IMG/VR virus record: IMGVR_UViG_3300017776_000239
Coordinates: 1 to 21,772 of that record
DNA from: a virus
Strand: one strand, 5' to 3'
DNA: 21,772 nucleotides
Position numbers and translations under genes: made by a program. Below the pieces are notes generated by a model. That model was not told the origin of the DNA and ran no database searches. It worked only from the letters and a program-made list of their open reading frames with translations. Positions 5,406 through 21,772 of this stretch are shown piece after piece (the stretch's first letter is position 1; every line of letters begins with the position of its first letter).

Positions 5406-5765
5406 ATGGCAACACCGAATCTTGTAAATATAGCAACTATCACACCTAAAAATGCTATGGGCACTTTAGGGGATACTAACAGAACTACTATGATTGACGT
5501 TCCTGCAGAAACTGCAGTTAGAATAGATACAATCTTAATCGCAAACATTGATGGTACTAATGCTGCTGACGCAACAGTAGAAATTAGTAACGACAATGGA
5601 TCAACTTATTATAAAATTGCAAGTACAATATCTGTACCTGCAGATTCAACTTTAGACTTAATTTCAAGACCTATCTACTTAGACGAAACAGATTTAATAG
5701 CTATAACTGCTGGCGCTGCTAGTGATTTAGCTTTCCATGTTTCTTATGTAGAAATGGTTGACTAG
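5406..5765 (+). CDS. Small beta-sandwich virion protein, 119 aa
   Basis: A 119-residue protein with a good SD (AAGGAG 5392-5397). It has alternating strands and the pattern IDTILIANIDG, ATVEISNDNGSTYY, VPADSTLDL, PIYLDETD, then HVSYVEMV at the C-terminus. No helix, TM or signal sequence is evident. The strand order resembles the 109-aa protein at 12600 and, more loosely, the 100-aa protein at 143, suggesting a shared small beta-sandwich fold used several times in this virion. I associate this family with marine phage tail regions but know no assigned function. Its TAG stop is part of the next gene's SD. Confidence 0.72.
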   Translation: MATPNLVNIATITPKNAMGTLGDTNRTTMIDVPAETAVRIDTILIANIDGTNAADATVEISNDNGSTYYKIASTISVPADSTLDLISRPIYLDETDLIAITAGAASDLAFHVSYVEMVD

Positions 5766-6435: not shown

Positions 6436-6930
6436 ATGGCATACGCAATTTTTAATTCAGATAATAATCTTGTACATATCGCTGCAAACGATAGTGATAG
6501 AGATGCATTAAACATAATGCAAAGTCTTTGTGTAATAAAAGATATTAGTGATTCTAATTTTACTAAACTTCAACTTAATACTGCAGGTATTACTTATGAT
6601 GGAACTAATGTTACAATAACTGATTACGATGATGGTTTAACAAGAGCTGCAAATAATCTAAATCGTCAGGTATCTGATAGTACTAAAGATAAGTTAATTA
6701 ATTTTGGAGCTCAAGCAGATTTAGATGGATATCTTAAAAACATAACAGATAGATTAGGAGATTTTGTAAAAAACAATTCAAGTAATTCTATGTATACTGT
6801 ATGTAATAATTATTTAACTTATTTAAATAGTTTAGACACTTCTTCTCTTAGCTATCCTTTAGGAAAAAGTTGGGAACAATATTGTACTGACAATTCTATT
6901 TCATTCGTACACCCTTTACAAATACCTTAG
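6436..6930 (+). CDS. Unknown 164-aa protein, possible fibre accessory
   Basis: A 164-residue protein starting 2 bases after the previous stop without a visible SD. N-terminal beta pattern MAYAIFNSDNNLVHIAAND, a central Asp/Asn-rich region (TYDGTNVTITDYDDG, about 53-67), then mostly helical sequence (about 70-140) and a C-terminal segment ending FVHPLQIP. No catalytic motif, TM or signal peptide. Its position just after a tail-tip adhesin is where several phages carry a fibre assembly chaperone, but the sequence match to known chaperones is not convincing, so the function stays unassigned. Confidence 0.65.
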   Translation: MAYAIFNSDNNLVHIAANDSDRDALNIMQSLCVIKDISDSNFTKLQLNTAGITYDGTNVTITDYDDGLTRAANNLNRQVSDSTKDKLINFGAQADLDGYLKNITDRLGDFVKNNSSNSMYTVCNNYLTYLNSLDTSSLSYPLGKSWEQYCTDNSISFVHPLQIP

Positions 6931-6951: not shown

Positions 6952-7701
6952 ATGTTTGAAAGAAATATAGAGTTTATCGCTCCACAAGATTATGTGGATT
7001 TAAAAGATAATTATCCAATACCTTGTAAATTACAAATACCTCAATGGTATAAAGATTTAGAACACACTCCACTAGACCTAACTATTAAAGGATGTATGCC
7101 TTTTTTAGATACTTTAACTACAGGTTATATTTTAAAAATGCCAATAGATATGTACATTGAACATAATGTACCTGATCCTCAAGGAACTTTAGCAACAGGA
7201 AAAACAGTTGGACTTAGAGGTTTGTTAGGAGATTTGGGAGACGGTTTAAATGTAAATCAACAAGCTAATCAAGACTTTCATCCACTTAAACAAGTCGGAA
7301 ATAAATGTCCTTTTGGAGCAAAAAATAGTAATTTAGTAATTCATAAAATTAGAAACCCATGGGTAATAAAAACACCTCCTGGGTACTCATGTTTATTTTT
7401 ACCTCCTATGAATAATGCAGACGATAGGTTTAGTATAATTCCAGGAATAGTAGATACAGATACATTTCCTACAGAAGTAAATTTTCCGTTTATTATGAAT
7501 GGAGATAAGTATCCTTATCAAAAAACTACTATAAAAGAAGGCACTCCTTATGTTCAAGTAATACCTTTTAAAAAAGAAAGTTGGAAAATGAAAGTAAGGT
7601 CTAGACCAAAGAAAGAAGCTGATGCAGCTAAATGGTGGACTACAAGTAAAATAATACATGTTTATAAAACACGTTTTTGGAATAAAATATCATGGAAATA
7701 A
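6952..7701 (+). CDS. DUF6065-like protein, 249 aa
   Basis: A 249-residue protein beginning the AT-rich accessory block. Recognisable blocks: IPQWYKDLEHTP (29-40), GCMPFLDTLTTGYIL (47-61), NPWVIKTPPGYSCLF (135-149), IIPGIVDTDTFP (162-173) and EGTPYVQVIPFKKESWKM (196-213). These match the pattern I recall for DUF6065 proteins, widespread in marine phages and without a known function. The protein is basic at its C-terminus. It starts 21 bases after the preceding stop with no SD; a TATAAT-like word in the gap lacks a good -35. It overlaps the following oxygenase gene by 10 bases. It often sits beside 2OG oxygenases in my recollection, which suggests linked action. Confidence 0.68.
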   Translation: MFERNIEFIAPQDYVDLKDNYPIPCKLQIPQWYKDLEHTPLDLTIKGCMPFLDTLTTGYILKMPIDMYIEHNVPDPQGTLATGKTVGLRGLLGDLGDGLNVNQQANQDFHPLKQVGNKCPFGAKNSNLVIHKIRNPWVIKTPPGYSCLFLPPMNNADDRFSIIPGIVDTDTFPTEVNFPFIMNGDKYPYQKTTIKEGTPYVQVIPFKKESWKMKVRSRPKKEADAAKWWTTSKIIHVYKTRFWNKISWK

Positions 7702-8270
7702 AAGATAATCTTGTAGATTACATTAGAGTATGGGATGATATATTTCCTAAACAAACATTAACTAACTTTAGAAAAGTTTTAGATGTAACAGAAAAATTTG
7801 AAGATGCATCAATAGTAAATGGTGGAAAAGCAACAGTTGATAAAAAACATAGAGATACTTTAGTTTGGCATCCTAGTAATTTAAAAGGTTCTATTACTGA
7901 GGCACATTGGACTAATCTTTTGTCTTGGACATTTAAAAAATTATATGACAACTATTTTGAAGAAATACAAATTAATCATGCAGTAAAGATGACTGAATTA
8001 CAAATTTTAAAATATGGTAATAACGGTCATTATAAATTCCATGTAGACGCTTCTACAGTCTTACATAGAACTCTTAGTTTAATTTTTTTTGTTAATGATG
8101 ACTATAAAGGAGGTGCTTTAAAGTTTAAAAACATTACAACTGGTAATGAGGTTGAAATTGAAAAAAAAGCTAACAGATGTGTTATCTGGCCAAGTAATTT
8201 TATGTATCCACATACTGTTACACCGGTTACAGAAGGCACTAGATATTCGGTGGTATCATGGGCGTTATAG
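7692..8270 (+). CDS. 2-oxoglutarate/Fe(II)-dependent oxygenase (prolyl-4-hydroxylase-like), 192 aa
   Basis: A 192-residue protein with a complete double-stranded beta-helix oxygenase signature: H117-V-D119 in HYKFHVDAS, the distal H174 in YPHTVTPV, and R184 ten residues later, the usual 2-oxoglutarate anchor. The strands between include LSLIFFVND, GGALKF and VIWPSNFMYPH. Family members couple 2OG decarboxylation to hydroxylation of a protein, nucleic acid or small-molecule substrate; the substrate here is unknown. The ATG overlaps the DUF6065-like gene by 10 bases, and the gene's end overlaps the next oxygenase by 13 bases, so the genes are likely translated as a coupled set. Catalytic ligands appear intact. 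Confidence 0.85.
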   Translation: MEIKDNLVDYIRVWDDIFPKQTLTNFRKVLDVTEKFEDASIVNGGKATVDKKHRDTLVWHPSNLKGSITEAHWTNLLSWTFKKLYDNYFEEIQINHAVKMTELQILKYGNNGHYKFHVDASTVLHRTLSLIFFVNDDYKGGALKFKNITTGNEVEIEKKANRCVIWPSNFMYPHTVTPVTEGTRYSVVSWAL

Positions 8271-8851
8271 GAAAAGACTTTAAATTTAAAATAATAAAAA
8301 ACTTTTTAACAAAAAGTGAAGTAAAATTATTAAATAAATATTGTGAAATAAAACATAGAACAAATTTAGGATCTCCTACTATAGAAGATGGTACTTTTGA
8401 TATGGCATGTAAAAACATGGACACTCGTTTTTATGGTGATCCTATAATGGAAGCTTTATCATTAGAAAAACAAAATTTAATGGAAAAAGAAACAGGTAAA
8501 AAATTATTAGGTACTTATACTTATTGGAGAATGTATACTAAATTTGCAGATTTAAAAACACACACTGATAGACCTGCTTGTGAGATAAGTGTAACAGTGC
8601 ATATAGGAGGTGATATAGGTTGGCCTATATTTATAGATGGCAAAGAATGTGTAACTGAACCTGGTAACGCTGTTATATATTTAGGTATGGATTTAAAACA
8701 TGGAAGAAAAGAATTTTTAGGAGATTGGCAAGCTCAATGTTTTATACATTATGTTGATGCTAACGGGCCCCATACAGATAATTTTATGGACCAAAGACCT
8801 TATTGGGGAATGAGGTCTTCTAAAAAAGAAGTTATAAGACTGAAAGAATAG
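8258..8851 (+). CDS. 2OG/Fe(II) oxygenase-like protein, 197 aa
   Basis: A 197-residue protein with an oxygenase-like core: YWRMYTKFADLKTHTDRP contains H102-T-D104, and KHGRKEFLGDW contains the candidate distal H148. Intervening strands (EISVTVHIG, GNAVIYLGMD) fit the beta-helix fold. The 2OG-binding basic residue is not at the usual +10 position after the distal His (that residue is Q158); R150, two residues on, is a candidate. The C-terminal WQAQCFIHYVDANGPH block (157-172) looks conserved. I recall similar proteins in marine viruses annotated as oxygenases. Activity is likely but less certain than for the neighbour. No SD; 13-base overlap with the upstream gene. Confidence 0.72.
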   Translation: MGVIGKDFKFKIIKNFLTKSEVKLLNKYCEIKHRTNLGSPTIEDGTFDMACKNMDTRFYGDPIMEALSLEKQNLMEKETGKKLLGTYTYWRMYTKFADLKTHTDRPACEISVTVHIGGDIGWPIFIDGKECVTEPGNAVIYLGMDLKHGRKEFLGDWQAQCFIHYVDANGPHTDNFMDQRPYWGMRSSKKEVIRLKE

Positions 8852-8852
8852 T

Positions 8853-9092
8853 ATGCAATTTAAACAAAAAAAAGATGGATCTTGTACAATAGAGTTTTCA
8901 GATAAAGAATTAGAAATTATAGCTAGAAAGAAACATATATATTTTACAGCAGACGCATTAAAAGATTTTGGAAATGTTTTAATGAGAATGGTTGCTGAAT
9001 GGCAAGAAAATTTTTCTGATGATGTAAGATATAGACAAACTAGGTCTGATGCTAAACCTCTTGAAGGACAAGAAACAGATGACAAAGATTAG
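8853..9092 (+). CDS. Small helical protein, 79 aa
   Basis: A 79-residue protein starting 1 base after the previous stop. Short N-terminal strand region (KKDGSCTIEFSD), then helix ELEIIARKK, IYFTADALKDFGNVLMRMVAEWQ (amphipathic, about 29-51) and a charged disordered tail. No known catalytic motif. The arrangement resembles small conserved proteins I recall next to oxygenase genes in marine phages, perhaps a partner or regulator, but this is not established. It overlaps the following cupin gene by 14 bases when that gene starts at 9079. Confidence 0.6.
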   Translation: MQFKQKKDGSCTIEFSDKELEIIARKKHIYFTADALKDFGNVLMRMVAEWQENFSDDVRYRQTRSDAKPLEGQETDDKD

Positions 9093-9651
9093 AGGTTTTC
9101 AAAAAGAAGATCTTGAAATATTAGAAATATTAATAAAAGATTCTAAAATAATTCTTACAGAAAAAGACATATTTAATTTTTTAAAAATATCTAAAAGATG
9201 GCCTTTTAGATACCCTTGGAATCAACCTTCTGTAGAAATAATAACTAACAATGAAGAATTAAATTCTGATTTATTTTTTGATGTAACTGGTTATCTAAAC
9301 TTTGATAGATGGAAACAGTTTTATGATCTTGGGTTTACAACTATAATATCAAATGTGTTAGATCTAAATGAAGATTTAAGAATACTAAATGATAAGTTAA
9401 CAAAAGCAACAGGGTTAAAAATAAATGGCAATTTTTACTTTTCTAAACCAGGACAAAGAGTTAGCTGGGGAGATCACACTCATACCTATGATGTTATTGC
9501 TAAACAGATCTATGGCACTTCTGATTGGGTTGTAGGTGGTAAAGAAATATTATTGAGTCCACAAGAAACTGTTATTATTCCAAAAAAAACATATCATAAA
9601 GTTACTACTATGAAACATAGTAAATTATCTTTAACTATTAATATAGAGTAA
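9079..9651 (+). CDS. Cupin-fold (JmjC/cupin-like) protein, 190 aa
   Basis: The start at 9079 is preferred over the upstream ATG at 9049: it has a GAAGGA SD at 9063-9068 and keeps the overlap short (14 bases). The C-terminal half fits cupin motifs: GDHTHTYDVIAKQIYG (131-146) gives H133-x-H135 with Q143 in the place of the usual Glu, and VIIPKKTYHKV (165-175) gives P168 and H173. The N-terminal half (about 1-110) is helical and unassigned. Cupin and JmjC enzymes share a beta-helix fold and often bind Fe(II). Three His could make an iron site, but no clear 2OG-binding residue was identified. It ends in a TAATG overlap with the third oxygenase. Confidence 0.66.
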   Translation: MTKIRGFQKEDLEILEILIKDSKIILTEKDIFNFLKISKRWPFRYPWNQPSVEIITNNEELNSDLFFDVTGYLNFDRWKQFYDLGFTTIISNVLDLNEDLRILNDKLTKATGLKINGNFYFSKPGQRVSWGDHTHTYDVIAKQIYGTSDWVVGGKEILLSPQETVIIPKKTYHKVTTMKHSKLSLTINIE

Positions 9652-10229
9652 TGATTGATTTTAATTTTCCTATTTTAACAAGTAAGTTTGAAAAACATAA
9701 GGAACTTAAAGATACTTTACTAACTTTAATTGAAGAACAACAATCTGGTAATTTAAAACAAGTAGATAGTTATTATACTGATTCTATTTCTAAGTTAGAT
9801 TGGGATAGAAAAAGAGATGATACCAGACCTTGGACTAAAATTATTCTTAAAGACTTAATGGATCACTTTGAAACTCAAGTTAAAAGGTTGGGACTACGTG
9901 ACGTAAGATTATACGATCTTTGGTTTCAACAATATAGTAAAGAAGACACTCACGGGTGGCATGTTCATGGAGAAAACTTTACAGGAGTATACTATTTGGA
10001 ATTAAAAGAAGCCGCTCCTAAGACTCAAATCATAGAACCCACAACTTCTAGATTAATAACTGTTGATGCTCAAGAGGGAGATGTGGTAATTTTTCCAAGT
10101 ATGTTTATACATAGAGCACCTACGGTTATTTGGCAGACAAGAAAAACAATTATATCTTTTAATTTCTCATGTGATAATGTAGATCAACAGTATCTACAGA
10201 AAATAGTAGATTTATATGGTTTATATTAA
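9651..10229 (+). CDS. Putative 2OG-Fe(II) oxygenase (2OG-FeII_Oxy_5-like), 192 aa
   Basis: A 192-residue protein with the PF13759-type pattern: WFQQYSKEDTHGWHVHGENF (91-110) followed by TGVYYLE, then GDVVIFPSMFIHRAP (143-157) and RKTIISFNFS (164-173). Candidate metal ligands are H104 and H106 (or E108) with H154; R164 lies ten residues after H154, the usual 2OG-anchor spacing. The N-terminal helix-rich part (to about 80) probably caps the active site. The ATG overlaps the cupin stop by one base. Proteins of this family occur in T4-like and marine phages; no substrate is established. The first-ligand motif HVHGE is atypical, see findings. Confidence 0.78.
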   Translation: MIDFNFPILTSKFEKHKELKDTLLTLIEEQQSGNLKQVDSYYTDSISKLDWDRKRDDTRPWTKIILKDLMDHFETQVKRLGLRDVRLYDLWFQQYSKEDTHGWHVHGENFTGVYYLELKEAAPKTQIIEPTTSRLITVDAQEGDVVIFPSMFIHRAPTVIWQTRKTIISFNFSCDNVDQQYLQKIVDLYGLY

Positions 10230-12436: not shown

Positions 12437-12600
12437 TGGCAAAAATTGTACAGGTTATAACTAGACCATCAAAAGAATATGATGTACAGACTGCAGAAGC
12501 TCAAGTAAGAGATTTTGATGCGATTGTAGAAAAATTAAACTCAACGTTTCAAGAAGAATTAAAAGAGGAGATAGAGGCTAGAAGTCTCTTTTTAGATTAA
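12436..12600 (+). CDS. Small 54-aa acidic helical protein
   Basis: An ORF of 54 codons linking the tail hub gene to the next gene by TAATG overlaps at both ends, which supports it as a real coding gene. N-terminal MAKIVQVITRPSKEYD strand, then one long acidic helix (about 18-50: QTAEAQVRDFDAIVEKLN, FQEELKEEIEARS) with coiled-coil potential. No TM, Cys or catalytic motif. Perhaps a tail assembly or clamp factor for the hub; function unknown. A weak terminator-like hairpin lies inside its 3' end. Confidence 0.7.
   Translation: MAKIVQVITRPSKEYDVQTAEAQVRDFDAIVEKLNSTFQEELKEEIEARSLFLD
12573..12593 (+). terminator. Possible weak intrinsic terminator inside the end of the 54-aa gene
   Basis: AGAGGC (12573-12578) can pair with GTCTCT (12584-12589), with one G-T pair, around a TAGAA loop; five T (12589-12593) follow. 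The stem is short and within coding sequence. It could reduce downstream transcription, but conserved codons may explain it equally well. Confidence 0.25.
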
Positions 12601-12929
12601 TGGCTAATCAATTTAAATTTGCAGGTATAGATAATAGCACAACAGGAAGTGCACTTACTCCTTTAGGTTCTGGTAATCCTTTAGTTAGTGAAACTTATGT
12701 TATTAAATCTATATTAGTAACATCAGCAGGCACACCAACAGTCACAATTACAAACAACAGTATTACAGCTATAAAATCAGCTGCTTTGACAGCAAACGTT
12801 ACAACAGAATTATTAACCCAACCTTTGGTAGTAGAAGGAGGAGATAGTTTTACAGTATTATCAAGCACTACAGATTCATTTGATGTAGCAATTAGCTATT
12901 TAAACATTAAGAAAGAGGTAACAGCATAA
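12600..12929 (+). CDS. Small beta-sandwich virion protein, 109 aa
   Basis: A 109-residue protein with TAATG overlaps at both ends. Strand pattern: YVIKSILVTSAGTPTVTITN, TELLTQPLVVEGGDSFTVLSS, then DVAISYLNIKKEV at the C-terminus. The order of strands and the ILVTSAG/ILIANIDG correspondence suggest the same small fold as the 119-aa protein at 5406. No helix or membrane segment. Its position after the hub protein suggests a tail-decoration or hub-associated role. Homology between the small proteins is a visual inference. Confidence 0.7.
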   Translation: MANQFKFAGIDNSTTGSALTPLGSGNPLVSETYVIKSILVTSAGTPTVTITNNSITAIKSAALTANVTTELLTQPLVVEGGDSFTVLSSTTDSFDVAISYLNIKKEVTA

Positions 12930-21388: not shown

Positions 21389-21772
21389 ATGCAATTATCA
21401 AAACATTTTACTCTTAGAGAGATGACTAATTCAATGACCGCGCAGCGTAAGGGTATTGATAATACACCAGGGGCCGGAGAAATTAAAAGTCTAGGTGACT
21501 TATGTTATGAAGTTTTGGAACCGCTACGTGCACACTTTGACAAGCCAGTTACGGTGACCTCGGGCTACCGCAGCGAAGCGCTGTGTGAAGCGATCGGATC
21601 GAAAAAGACGTCACAGCATGCCAAGGGCCAGGCGGTCGACCTAGAAATATTTGGCGTGCCCAACATTAAGACAGCTTACTGGCTACAAAATAACGTTGAT
21701 TTTGATCAGCTCATCATGGAGTACTATGATCCAACAGATCCTGCAGGGGGATGGGTCCACATATCTTATCAC
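21389..21772 (+). CDS. Peptidase M15 family endolysin (partial, runs off right edge)
   Basis: At least 128 residues from ATG at 21389, open to the end of the window. Signature: VTVTSGYRSEAL (55-66), SQHAKGQAVDL (75-85) with zinc ligands H77 and D84 (HxxxxxxD), and GWVHISY with W122-x-H124. E111 in IMEYYD is a candidate catalytic base. This is the M15 (VanY/DD-carboxypeptidase-like) zinc peptidase layout used by phages to cut peptidoglycan stem peptides at lysis. The core is essentially complete by the window edge. It follows the holin-like gene after a 4-base gap, without a clear SD. Base composition rises to about 58% GC over 21541-21660, unlike the AT-rich genes around it. Confidence 0.86.
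   Translation, partial: MQLSKHFTLREMTNSMTAQRKGIDNTPGAGEIKSLGDLCYEVLEPLRAHFDKPVTVTSGYRSEALCEAIGSKKTSQHAKGQAVDLEIFGVPNIKTAYWLQNNVDFDQLIMEYYDPTDPAGGWVHISYH

Follow-up and report, generated by a model that had tools for sequence, protein, structure and literature searches.

A co-inherited oxygenase module on the adhesin side of a pelagiphage-like virus, and a "ferrochelatase" with a predicted Fe(II)/2-oxoglutarate oxygenase fold

Background

What would a marine phage do with a run of oxygenase-type genes set between its adhesin and structural genes? The question is raised by IMG/VR record IMGVR_UViG_3300017776_000239, a linear fragment of 21,772 bases that was analysed whole and is called the window here. 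An earlier note on this DNA marked an island at 6952-10229 with three Fe(II)/2-oxoglutarate (2OG) oxygenases, a cupin, a DUF6065-like protein and a 79-residue protein. It suggested that they form a hydroxylation module acting on a shared substrate, possibly proteins of the virion or host surface, with the DUF6065-like protein as a partner. The six forward open reading frames (ORFs), A to F in Table 1, are indeed present and all have homologues; neighbours abut or overlap by 1-44 nucleotides. The gene that follows, which had been taken for a tail hub, instead encodes a P22-gp10-like stabilisation/nozzle-type protein (phrog_3287), annotated in relatives as a stabilisation, needle or constituent protein; we call it the nozzle gene, and the place before it the slot. 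We show below that genes of the island belong to a co-inherited module starting one gene further upstream, and that the supposed ferrochelatase among them is, by its predicted fold, an oxygenase.

Results and discussion

The slot and its co-inherited module

The nozzle gene served as the query in collecting IMG/VR loci, a choice that leaves slot content unbiased, and the genes of these loci were labelled with profiles built for this analysis. B- or F-class genes occur in 53 of 56 non-redundant slots, and most slots hold two to five oxygenase-class genes; in one exception (L054) the oxygenases lie just beyond the slot boundary used. An additional oxygenase family of the slot shows a profile match to B (96.8%). 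Named relatives carry oxygenases and a gene called ferrochelatase at the same place, HTVC027P having oxygenases only, on the opposite strand. Two architectures are found. The first, that of the window, has a gene for a 164-residue adhesin-side protein (up164), after which come A, B, C, usually D, and optional extras; in the second, other glycine-rich (Gly-rich) proteins and a 157-residue protein stand before a set of B, F, C, E and others whose order is shuffled. Comparison of up164 with the 157-residue protein gave no support for homology.

In 60 of 67 cases B and then C come after A, and in 64 of 69 up164 lies directly before A. Within the 18 slots that have up164, A is present in 14 and D in 15, and neither occurs in any of the 38 others. 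The presence linkage of A and D with up164 is significant by Fisher's test but reflects 4-6 independent switches on the nozzle tree; it was not relied on alone, and with so few switches we rejected it as proof of function.

Pairwise distances over 29 loci of the first type give a picture of how these genes have diverged. The upstream structural gene and the nozzle gene have distances that correlate at r 0.88; among up164, A, B and C the mutual correlations are r 0.70-0.81 (0.70-0.74 for up164 with the other three), while r between module and nozzle gene is only -0.01 to 0.06 (0.00 for up164). The adhesin is intermediate, at 0.37-0.49 with the module and 0.34-0.38 with the flanking genes. In partial Mantel tests p is 0.0005 for both module-up164 and module-adhesin, and module-nozzle gives nothing. 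As the module distances are correlated with one another and uncorrelated with those of the nozzle gene, up164-A-B-C is exchanged as a unit. The module is thus up164-A-B-C(-D), beginning at up164 (6436) and not at A (6952), where the earlier note had placed the start of the unit, and it has a sharp border before the nozzle gene. E and F are optional add-ons with shuffled positions in other loci, so that the proposed unit of six genes holds for its first part and not for these two. Co-occurrence, which had been put forward as a check, is therefore non-random, and the shared divergence history is independent of the phage backbone.

The "ferrochelatase" of the island is a predicted oxygenase

C has no Pfam match, and its best family, phrog_2954, is labelled ferrochelatase in PHROGs. 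The Pfam ferrochelatase family PF00762 matches none of 78 C homologues; it also finds nothing in the window, HTVC023P, HTVC027P, 023Pt_psg01, HTVC008M, Mosig or P-SSM7, six phages of which five carry ferrochelatase annotations, while control genomes do match. In the alignment of the 78 sequences H102, D104, R105, G136 and H148 are invariant, and the triad H102-x-D104...H148, as expected of the Fe(II)/2OG oxygenase superfamily, is also 100% conserved in 104 orthologues. An AlphaFold2 model of C, with a predicted local distance difference test score (pLDDT) of 92, retrieves 505 PDB chains at E<=1e-3, with PHD2 (E 2.9e-8) and the P. putida prolyl hydroxylase on top. Structure comparison, in which prolyl hydroxylases and SnoN lead the matches, gives VIA Z values of up to 16.0 and places the model among double-stranded beta-helix proteins. 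Identity to PHD2 and PKHD-type hydroxylases is only 10-17%. R91, R105, R150, Q160 and H164 are conserved, none of them at the usual +9 to +11 position of the 2OG-binding Arg/Lys near the distal His.

Having no PF00762 match and a confident 2OG-oxygenase model, C was rejected as a ferrochelatase; we are confident that it has a predicted Fe(II)/2OG-oxygenase fold and has long been mislabelled as a haem enzyme. The C profile matches every one of the "ferrochelatase" genes of HTVC023P, 023Pt_psg01, HTVC008M, Mosig, S-RIM32 and P-SSM7, and HxDR is present in each. The P-SSM2 gene annotated "piuC: ferrochelatase", which sits among tail-fibre genes, matches B and not C; this may be how the ferrochelatase label spread. 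In cyanophage S-SCSM1, C is fused to B in a single protein, in which the authors of that genome recognised two oxygenase domains (PMC9602691).

Families, metal ligands and selection

Computation shows B, C and F to be Fe(II)/2OG-oxygenase-type proteins with conserved metal ligands, and E to have a cupin-type HxH...H site. B belongs to the superfamily by its 2OG-FeII_Oxy_3 match, its HxD...H motif and its Arg: H117-x-D119...H174 and R184 are conserved in all of 66 orthologues, and the nearest solved chains are those of PHD2 and PKHD hydroxylases, which are protein hydroxylases. F is a member of 2OG-FeII_Oxy_5 (PF13759; 37.8 bits, cutoff 27) that lacks the canonical HxD/E...H triad, the conserved motif there being HxH...H (H104-x-H106...H154, 100% in 12 orthologues). 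The E motif, H143-x-H145...H183, is invariant in 15 orthologues; curated profiles stay below cutoff (Cupin_2 20.7 of 27.2 bits, JmjC_2 18.5 of 22), and sequence search found no solved relatives. Translation of E more likely begins at 9079 (ATG, with AAGGA 10 nucleotides upstream) than at 9049. The protein types first assigned can accordingly be kept for B and F by Pfam, for C by fold and for A as DUF6065-like, with A and E reaching only sub-threshold scores in Pfam. The Fe(II) ligands that had seemed plausible by eye withstood alignment, being fully conserved in each orthologue set (66, 104, 15 and 12 for B, C, E and F).

Against the nearest divergent relative, the ratio of nonsynonymous to synonymous substitution rates (dN/dS) is 0.29-0.45 for A to E, from few substitutions, and F shows a single change. 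In comparisons with more distant relatives, values are mostly 0.28-0.75 for the module and adhesin genes, up to about 1 for D, and 0.09 for the nozzle gene. The island genes are constrained yet fast-evolving, along with the adhesin.

A DUF6065-like protein with a predicted dUTPase-like fold

A scores 18.9 bits against Pfam DUF6065 (PF19541), below the gathering cutoff of 26.6, and this profile matches 20 of 37 A homologues weakly; the match to phrog_7084 covers the full length. A model from the 37-sequence alignment (pLDDT 85) was compared with the PDB, where the top rows are all dUTPases with a Foldseek E of only 2.5e-3; superposition on a dUTPase structure gives VIA Z 10.8 and a root-mean-square deviation of 2.3 over 119 residues, indicating a dUTPase-like fold for the predicted model. 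Phage and giant-virus dUTPases are present among the viral structure matches, ranked below A's own relatives. By sequence, A does not match dUTPase PF00692. In hhalign, PGIVDTD...GTPYVQVI aligns to the dUTPase motif 3-4 stretch only, with a probability of 16% (E 0.0016); for comparison, unrelated controls reach 0.1-1.7%, and B and C, which are families that share a fold, reach 8% against each other. We read A as a putative dUTPase-fold protein with a role other than dUTPase. Its proposed part as a partner of the oxygenases gains from co-inheritance with B and C, and the predicted fold now stands beside that proposal.

Relatives of A are found in haloviruses (HF1, HF2, HRTV), many Alphaproteobacteria and a few other bacteria, and a literature search found no mention of DUF6065. 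Within 6 kb of cellular DUF6065 genes, the module oxygenase profiles match nothing, two phage contigs excepted; false ORFs in GC-rich DNA ruined the general clustering of these neighbourhoods. Two contigs labelled as bacterial, L158 (single-cell genome AG-910-K03) and L157 (a Maricaulis metagenome-assembled genome), are relatives of this phage, both with the nozzle gene and A-B-C. L158 keeps the A-B-C order though the surrounding gene order differs; coming from a single alphaproteobacterial cell, it is a possible link to a host.

What the enzymes may act on

The best explanation, to which we give about an even chance, is that the island represents one form of a modular, adhesin-linked protein-tailoring cassette, probably acting on the phage's own adhesin or fibre. 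HTVC023P-type pelagiphages and relatives would keep this cassette between their adhesin genes and the nozzle-type gene, swapping the core up164-A-B-C(-D) as a unit and adding E and F optionally. The enzymes would be made late, together with the structural genes; B and C would act as hydroxylases on residues of a phage protein, the neighbouring adhesin or a tail fibre being the likeliest, and F and E may add further oxidations; the hydroxylation could tune the stability of that protein or its binding to the receptor. The role of A would be that of a binding or scaffolding partner and not of a dUTPase. We favour an adhesin or fibre as substrate because of the position of the genes, their co-divergence with adhesin-side genes, the protein-hydroxylase relatives of B, and recurrence among fibre genes: similar genes lie among the tail-fibre genes of P-SSM2, ACG-2014f, Sf-CH11, S-SCSM1 and Mosig, unrelated cyanomyophages included. 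Tailoring as such is supported by the conserved ligands in all four enzymes, by the C-B fusion, by the prevalence of oxygenases in the slot, and by the fact that other slot genes also encode tailoring enzymes. In sister phages these are a tryptophan halogenase (7.7e-93), a carbamoyltransferase (1.4e-53), sulfotransferases and a methyltransferase; DUF6445 is found there too. Hydroxylation of a common virion or host-surface substrate is something we infer, as the earlier note did. We would only tentatively go as far as a system of post-translational adhesin tailoring encoded by the phage, in which swappable hydroxylases, a halogenase, and sulfo-, carbamoyl- and methyltransferases might act on the Gly-rich adhesin with dUTPase-fold A as their dedicated partner.

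Several observations weigh against adhesin tailoring. Adjacent genes tend to be exchanged together, and co-inheritance therefore does not prove joint function. Since C lacks Arg at the usual 2OG-binding position, its cosubstrate is uncertain. Three slots with tail-collar or other non-Gly-rich adhesins still carry oxygenases, and residue enrichment in adhesins by enzyme (Trp with halogenase, Tyr with sulfotransferase) gave nothing convincing after multiple testing. Some homologues are found at a distance from fibre genes: a C homologue lies among replication genes in P-SSM7, and B-like genes adjoin uvsX.

The main rival, which fits most of the same facts and which we consider possible though rather doubtful, is that the enzymes act on the host, on surface glycans, lipids or receptor proteins (as in superinfection exclusion, the receptor being the one that the adhesin uses) or on other host proteins. 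Co-inheritance with adhesin-side genes is explained equally well in this way, and sulfo-, carbamoyl- and methyltransferases such as those in the slot commonly act on glycans or small molecules. However, the nearest solved relatives of B are protein hydroxylases, and the location of the genes inside the structural block suggests late expression, when exclusion would be less useful. A module for nucleotide or DNA modification or repair, in which the dUTPase-fold protein A handles a nucleotide and B and C oxidise bases in the manner of TET/JBP or AlkB, seems unlikely to us. The predicted fold of A and the homologues near replication or repair genes point that way, as does the best PDB sequence match of the C profile, a Tet-like dioxygenase at an E of only 0.32, and cyanophage 2OG genes adjoining uvsX/uvsY have been read as AlkB-like repair genes (PMC2984593). 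Against this, prolyl hydroxylases and SnoN lead the structure matches of C, A has no dUTPase profile match, and the genes sit with, and are inherited with, adhesin genes and not replication genes.

It is also improbable that the slot is merely a tolerant insertion site whose small enzyme genes, lacking a common function, are swapped with the adhesin by recombination in conserved flanks. Shuffled gene order, variable gene number and opposite-strand versions in four loci would suit such a site, but up164-A-B-C keeps a fixed order across divergent phages and its ligands are conserved, and neither oxygenases in 53 of 56 slots nor the C-B fusion would be expected of it. Least credible of all is the reading stated for pelagiphages (PMC9599517; PMC11561400), in which ferrochelatase and oxygenases are genes of host iron or haem metabolism. 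The label of C in PHROGs and GenBank agrees with it; as far as C is concerned it is already contradicted by the confident oxygenase model with its invariant HxD...H, by the failure of PF00762 to match the window or the six phages when controls do match, and by the P-SSM2 gene.

Variants of the slot and features of the window

In four loci (L055, L087, L104 and L111) the oxygenase cluster is on the opposite strand, and three of these have a tail-collar-like adhesin that is not Gly-rich. Two others (L093 and L130) have no recognised oxygenase, and large virion-structural-related proteins take the place of Gly-rich adhesins. A strict rule that a Gly-rich adhesin always comes with oxygenases was rejected as weak (56/56 versus 17/20, p 0.016). 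In sister phages the adhesin position is filled by related Gly-rich proteins, one of which matches Pfam Gly_rich_2. In Mosig (L259:8981-10217), genes annotated as haem oxygenase and phycocyanobilin:ferredoxin oxidoreductase follow the oxygenase cluster, the labels being those of the annotation.

The nozzle gene of the window finds its best matches in 023Pt_psg01 and pelagiphages HTVC027P and HTVC023P, with 45% identity to HTVC027P and 023Pt_psg01. With structural genes and the oxygenase slot in common, the source phage is, as far as gene relatedness indicates, probably a relative of HTVC023P-type pelagiphages, phages that kill the ocean bacterium SAR11. The GC content of the island is 29.2%, against 35.6% for the remainder of the window. 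Base counts reported earlier as a sign of AT-richness (5, 8 and 25 G/C of 60 in sampled stretches) are exact, yet they say nothing about foreign origin: third-position GC (GC3) is 12.5-18.1% in island genes and 8.6-20.8% in the others. Because GC3 lies within the range of other genes, the low GC reflects amino-acid composition, and a foreign AT-rich island was rejected. Promoter-like sites stay within the shuffled range, and a scan for terminators found no forward-strand terminator-like site inside the island.

A profile from the first small protein (5406-5765) also matches the gene after the nozzle gene (12600-12929), in the window and in most relatives, while direct BLAST of the pair gives nothing; the two are possibly distant paralogues flanking the slot. 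At 21389-21772, truncated by the edge of the record, is a Peptidase M15 gene (Peptidase_M15_3, 4e-19), a probable endolysin.

Table 1. Genes of the module and its surroundings in the window, and enzyme genes at the same place in sister phages
Feature	Position	Strand	Remarks
Gly-rich adhesin-like protein, 219 aa	5774..6433	+	Upstream neighbour and proposed substrate; from sequence
up164, 164 aa, adhesin-side	6436..6930	+	First gene of the co-inherited module
A, DUF6065-like, 249 aa	6952..7701	+	phrog_7084 1.4e-40; predicted dUTPase-like fold
B, Fe(II)/2OG oxygenase, 192 aa, HxD...H...R	7692..8270	+	2OG-FeII_Oxy_3 (Pfam) 1.9e-19
C, Fe(II)/2OG-oxygenase-fold protein, 197 aa	8258..8851	+	phrog_2954 2.3e-43; predicted fold
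D, 79 aa	8853..9092	+	Conserved homologues; no named family
E, cupin/JmjC-like, HxH...H	9049..9651	+	phrog_29157 3e-59; Cupin_2 and JmjC_2 sub-threshold
F, Fe(II)/2OG oxygenase-type, 192 aa, HxH...H	9651..10229	+	2OG-FeII_Oxy_5 (Pfam) 2.7e-9
P22-gp10-like stabilisation/nozzle-type structural protein, 726 aa	10256..12436	+	phrog_3287 4.8e-99; downstream slot border
Tryptophan halogenase in slot	L012:4921-6348
Carbamoyltransferase in slot	L120:8440-9939
Sulfotransferase in slot	L094:8569-9381

Relation to known systems and significance

Oxygenase clusters of this kind are already known from HTVC023P-type pelagiphages, where clustered oxygenases and a "ferrochelatase" were published in 2022 and read as that pair (PMC9599517). 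Those clusters have in common with ours the kind of phage, the slot before the nozzle gene and the B, F and C families; in our analysis C has a predicted oxygenase fold, and A, D, E and the up164 module were not described there. A table of oxygenases from the host-recognition islands of marine phages appeared in 2014 (PMC3909814); these metaviromic islands likewise have Fe(II)-dependent oxygenase genes in hypervariable host-recognition regions, but no module, partner proteins or mechanism was given. B and C resemble PHD2/EGLN and PKHD-type (PiuC/YbiX) hydroxylases in fold and Fe ligands, while C has low identity to them and not the usual 2OG anchor. A resembles trimeric dUTPases (PF00692) in predicted fold, with motif 3- and 4-like stretches in register, and differs in being about 100 residues longer, with no PF00692 match and a weak profile match. 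It is homologous over almost its whole length to the phrog_7084/DUF6065 proteins of haloviruses and Alphaproteobacteria, which were not seen beside B/C-type oxygenases. As far as the literature searched goes, four things are new: the definition of the module, the reassignment of C, the predicted fold of A and the broader range of tailoring genes in the slot.

In abundant pelagiphages, oxygenase and "ferrochelatase" genes have been reported as a hallmark and, with seasonal enrichment (PMC11561400), as a seasonal signature; they were read as genes of host metabolism. Should C be an oxygenase and the module follow the adhesin, these readings will have to be revised, with host recognition replacing haem metabolism as the likely function. 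The predicted fold of A would be the first structural lead for the DUF6065-like proteins of haloviruses and many Alphaproteobacteria. Tailoring of the adhesin predicts modified residues on the virion adhesins of cultured pelagiphages and, if true, would mean that marine phages diversify host recognition by chemistry as well as by sequence.

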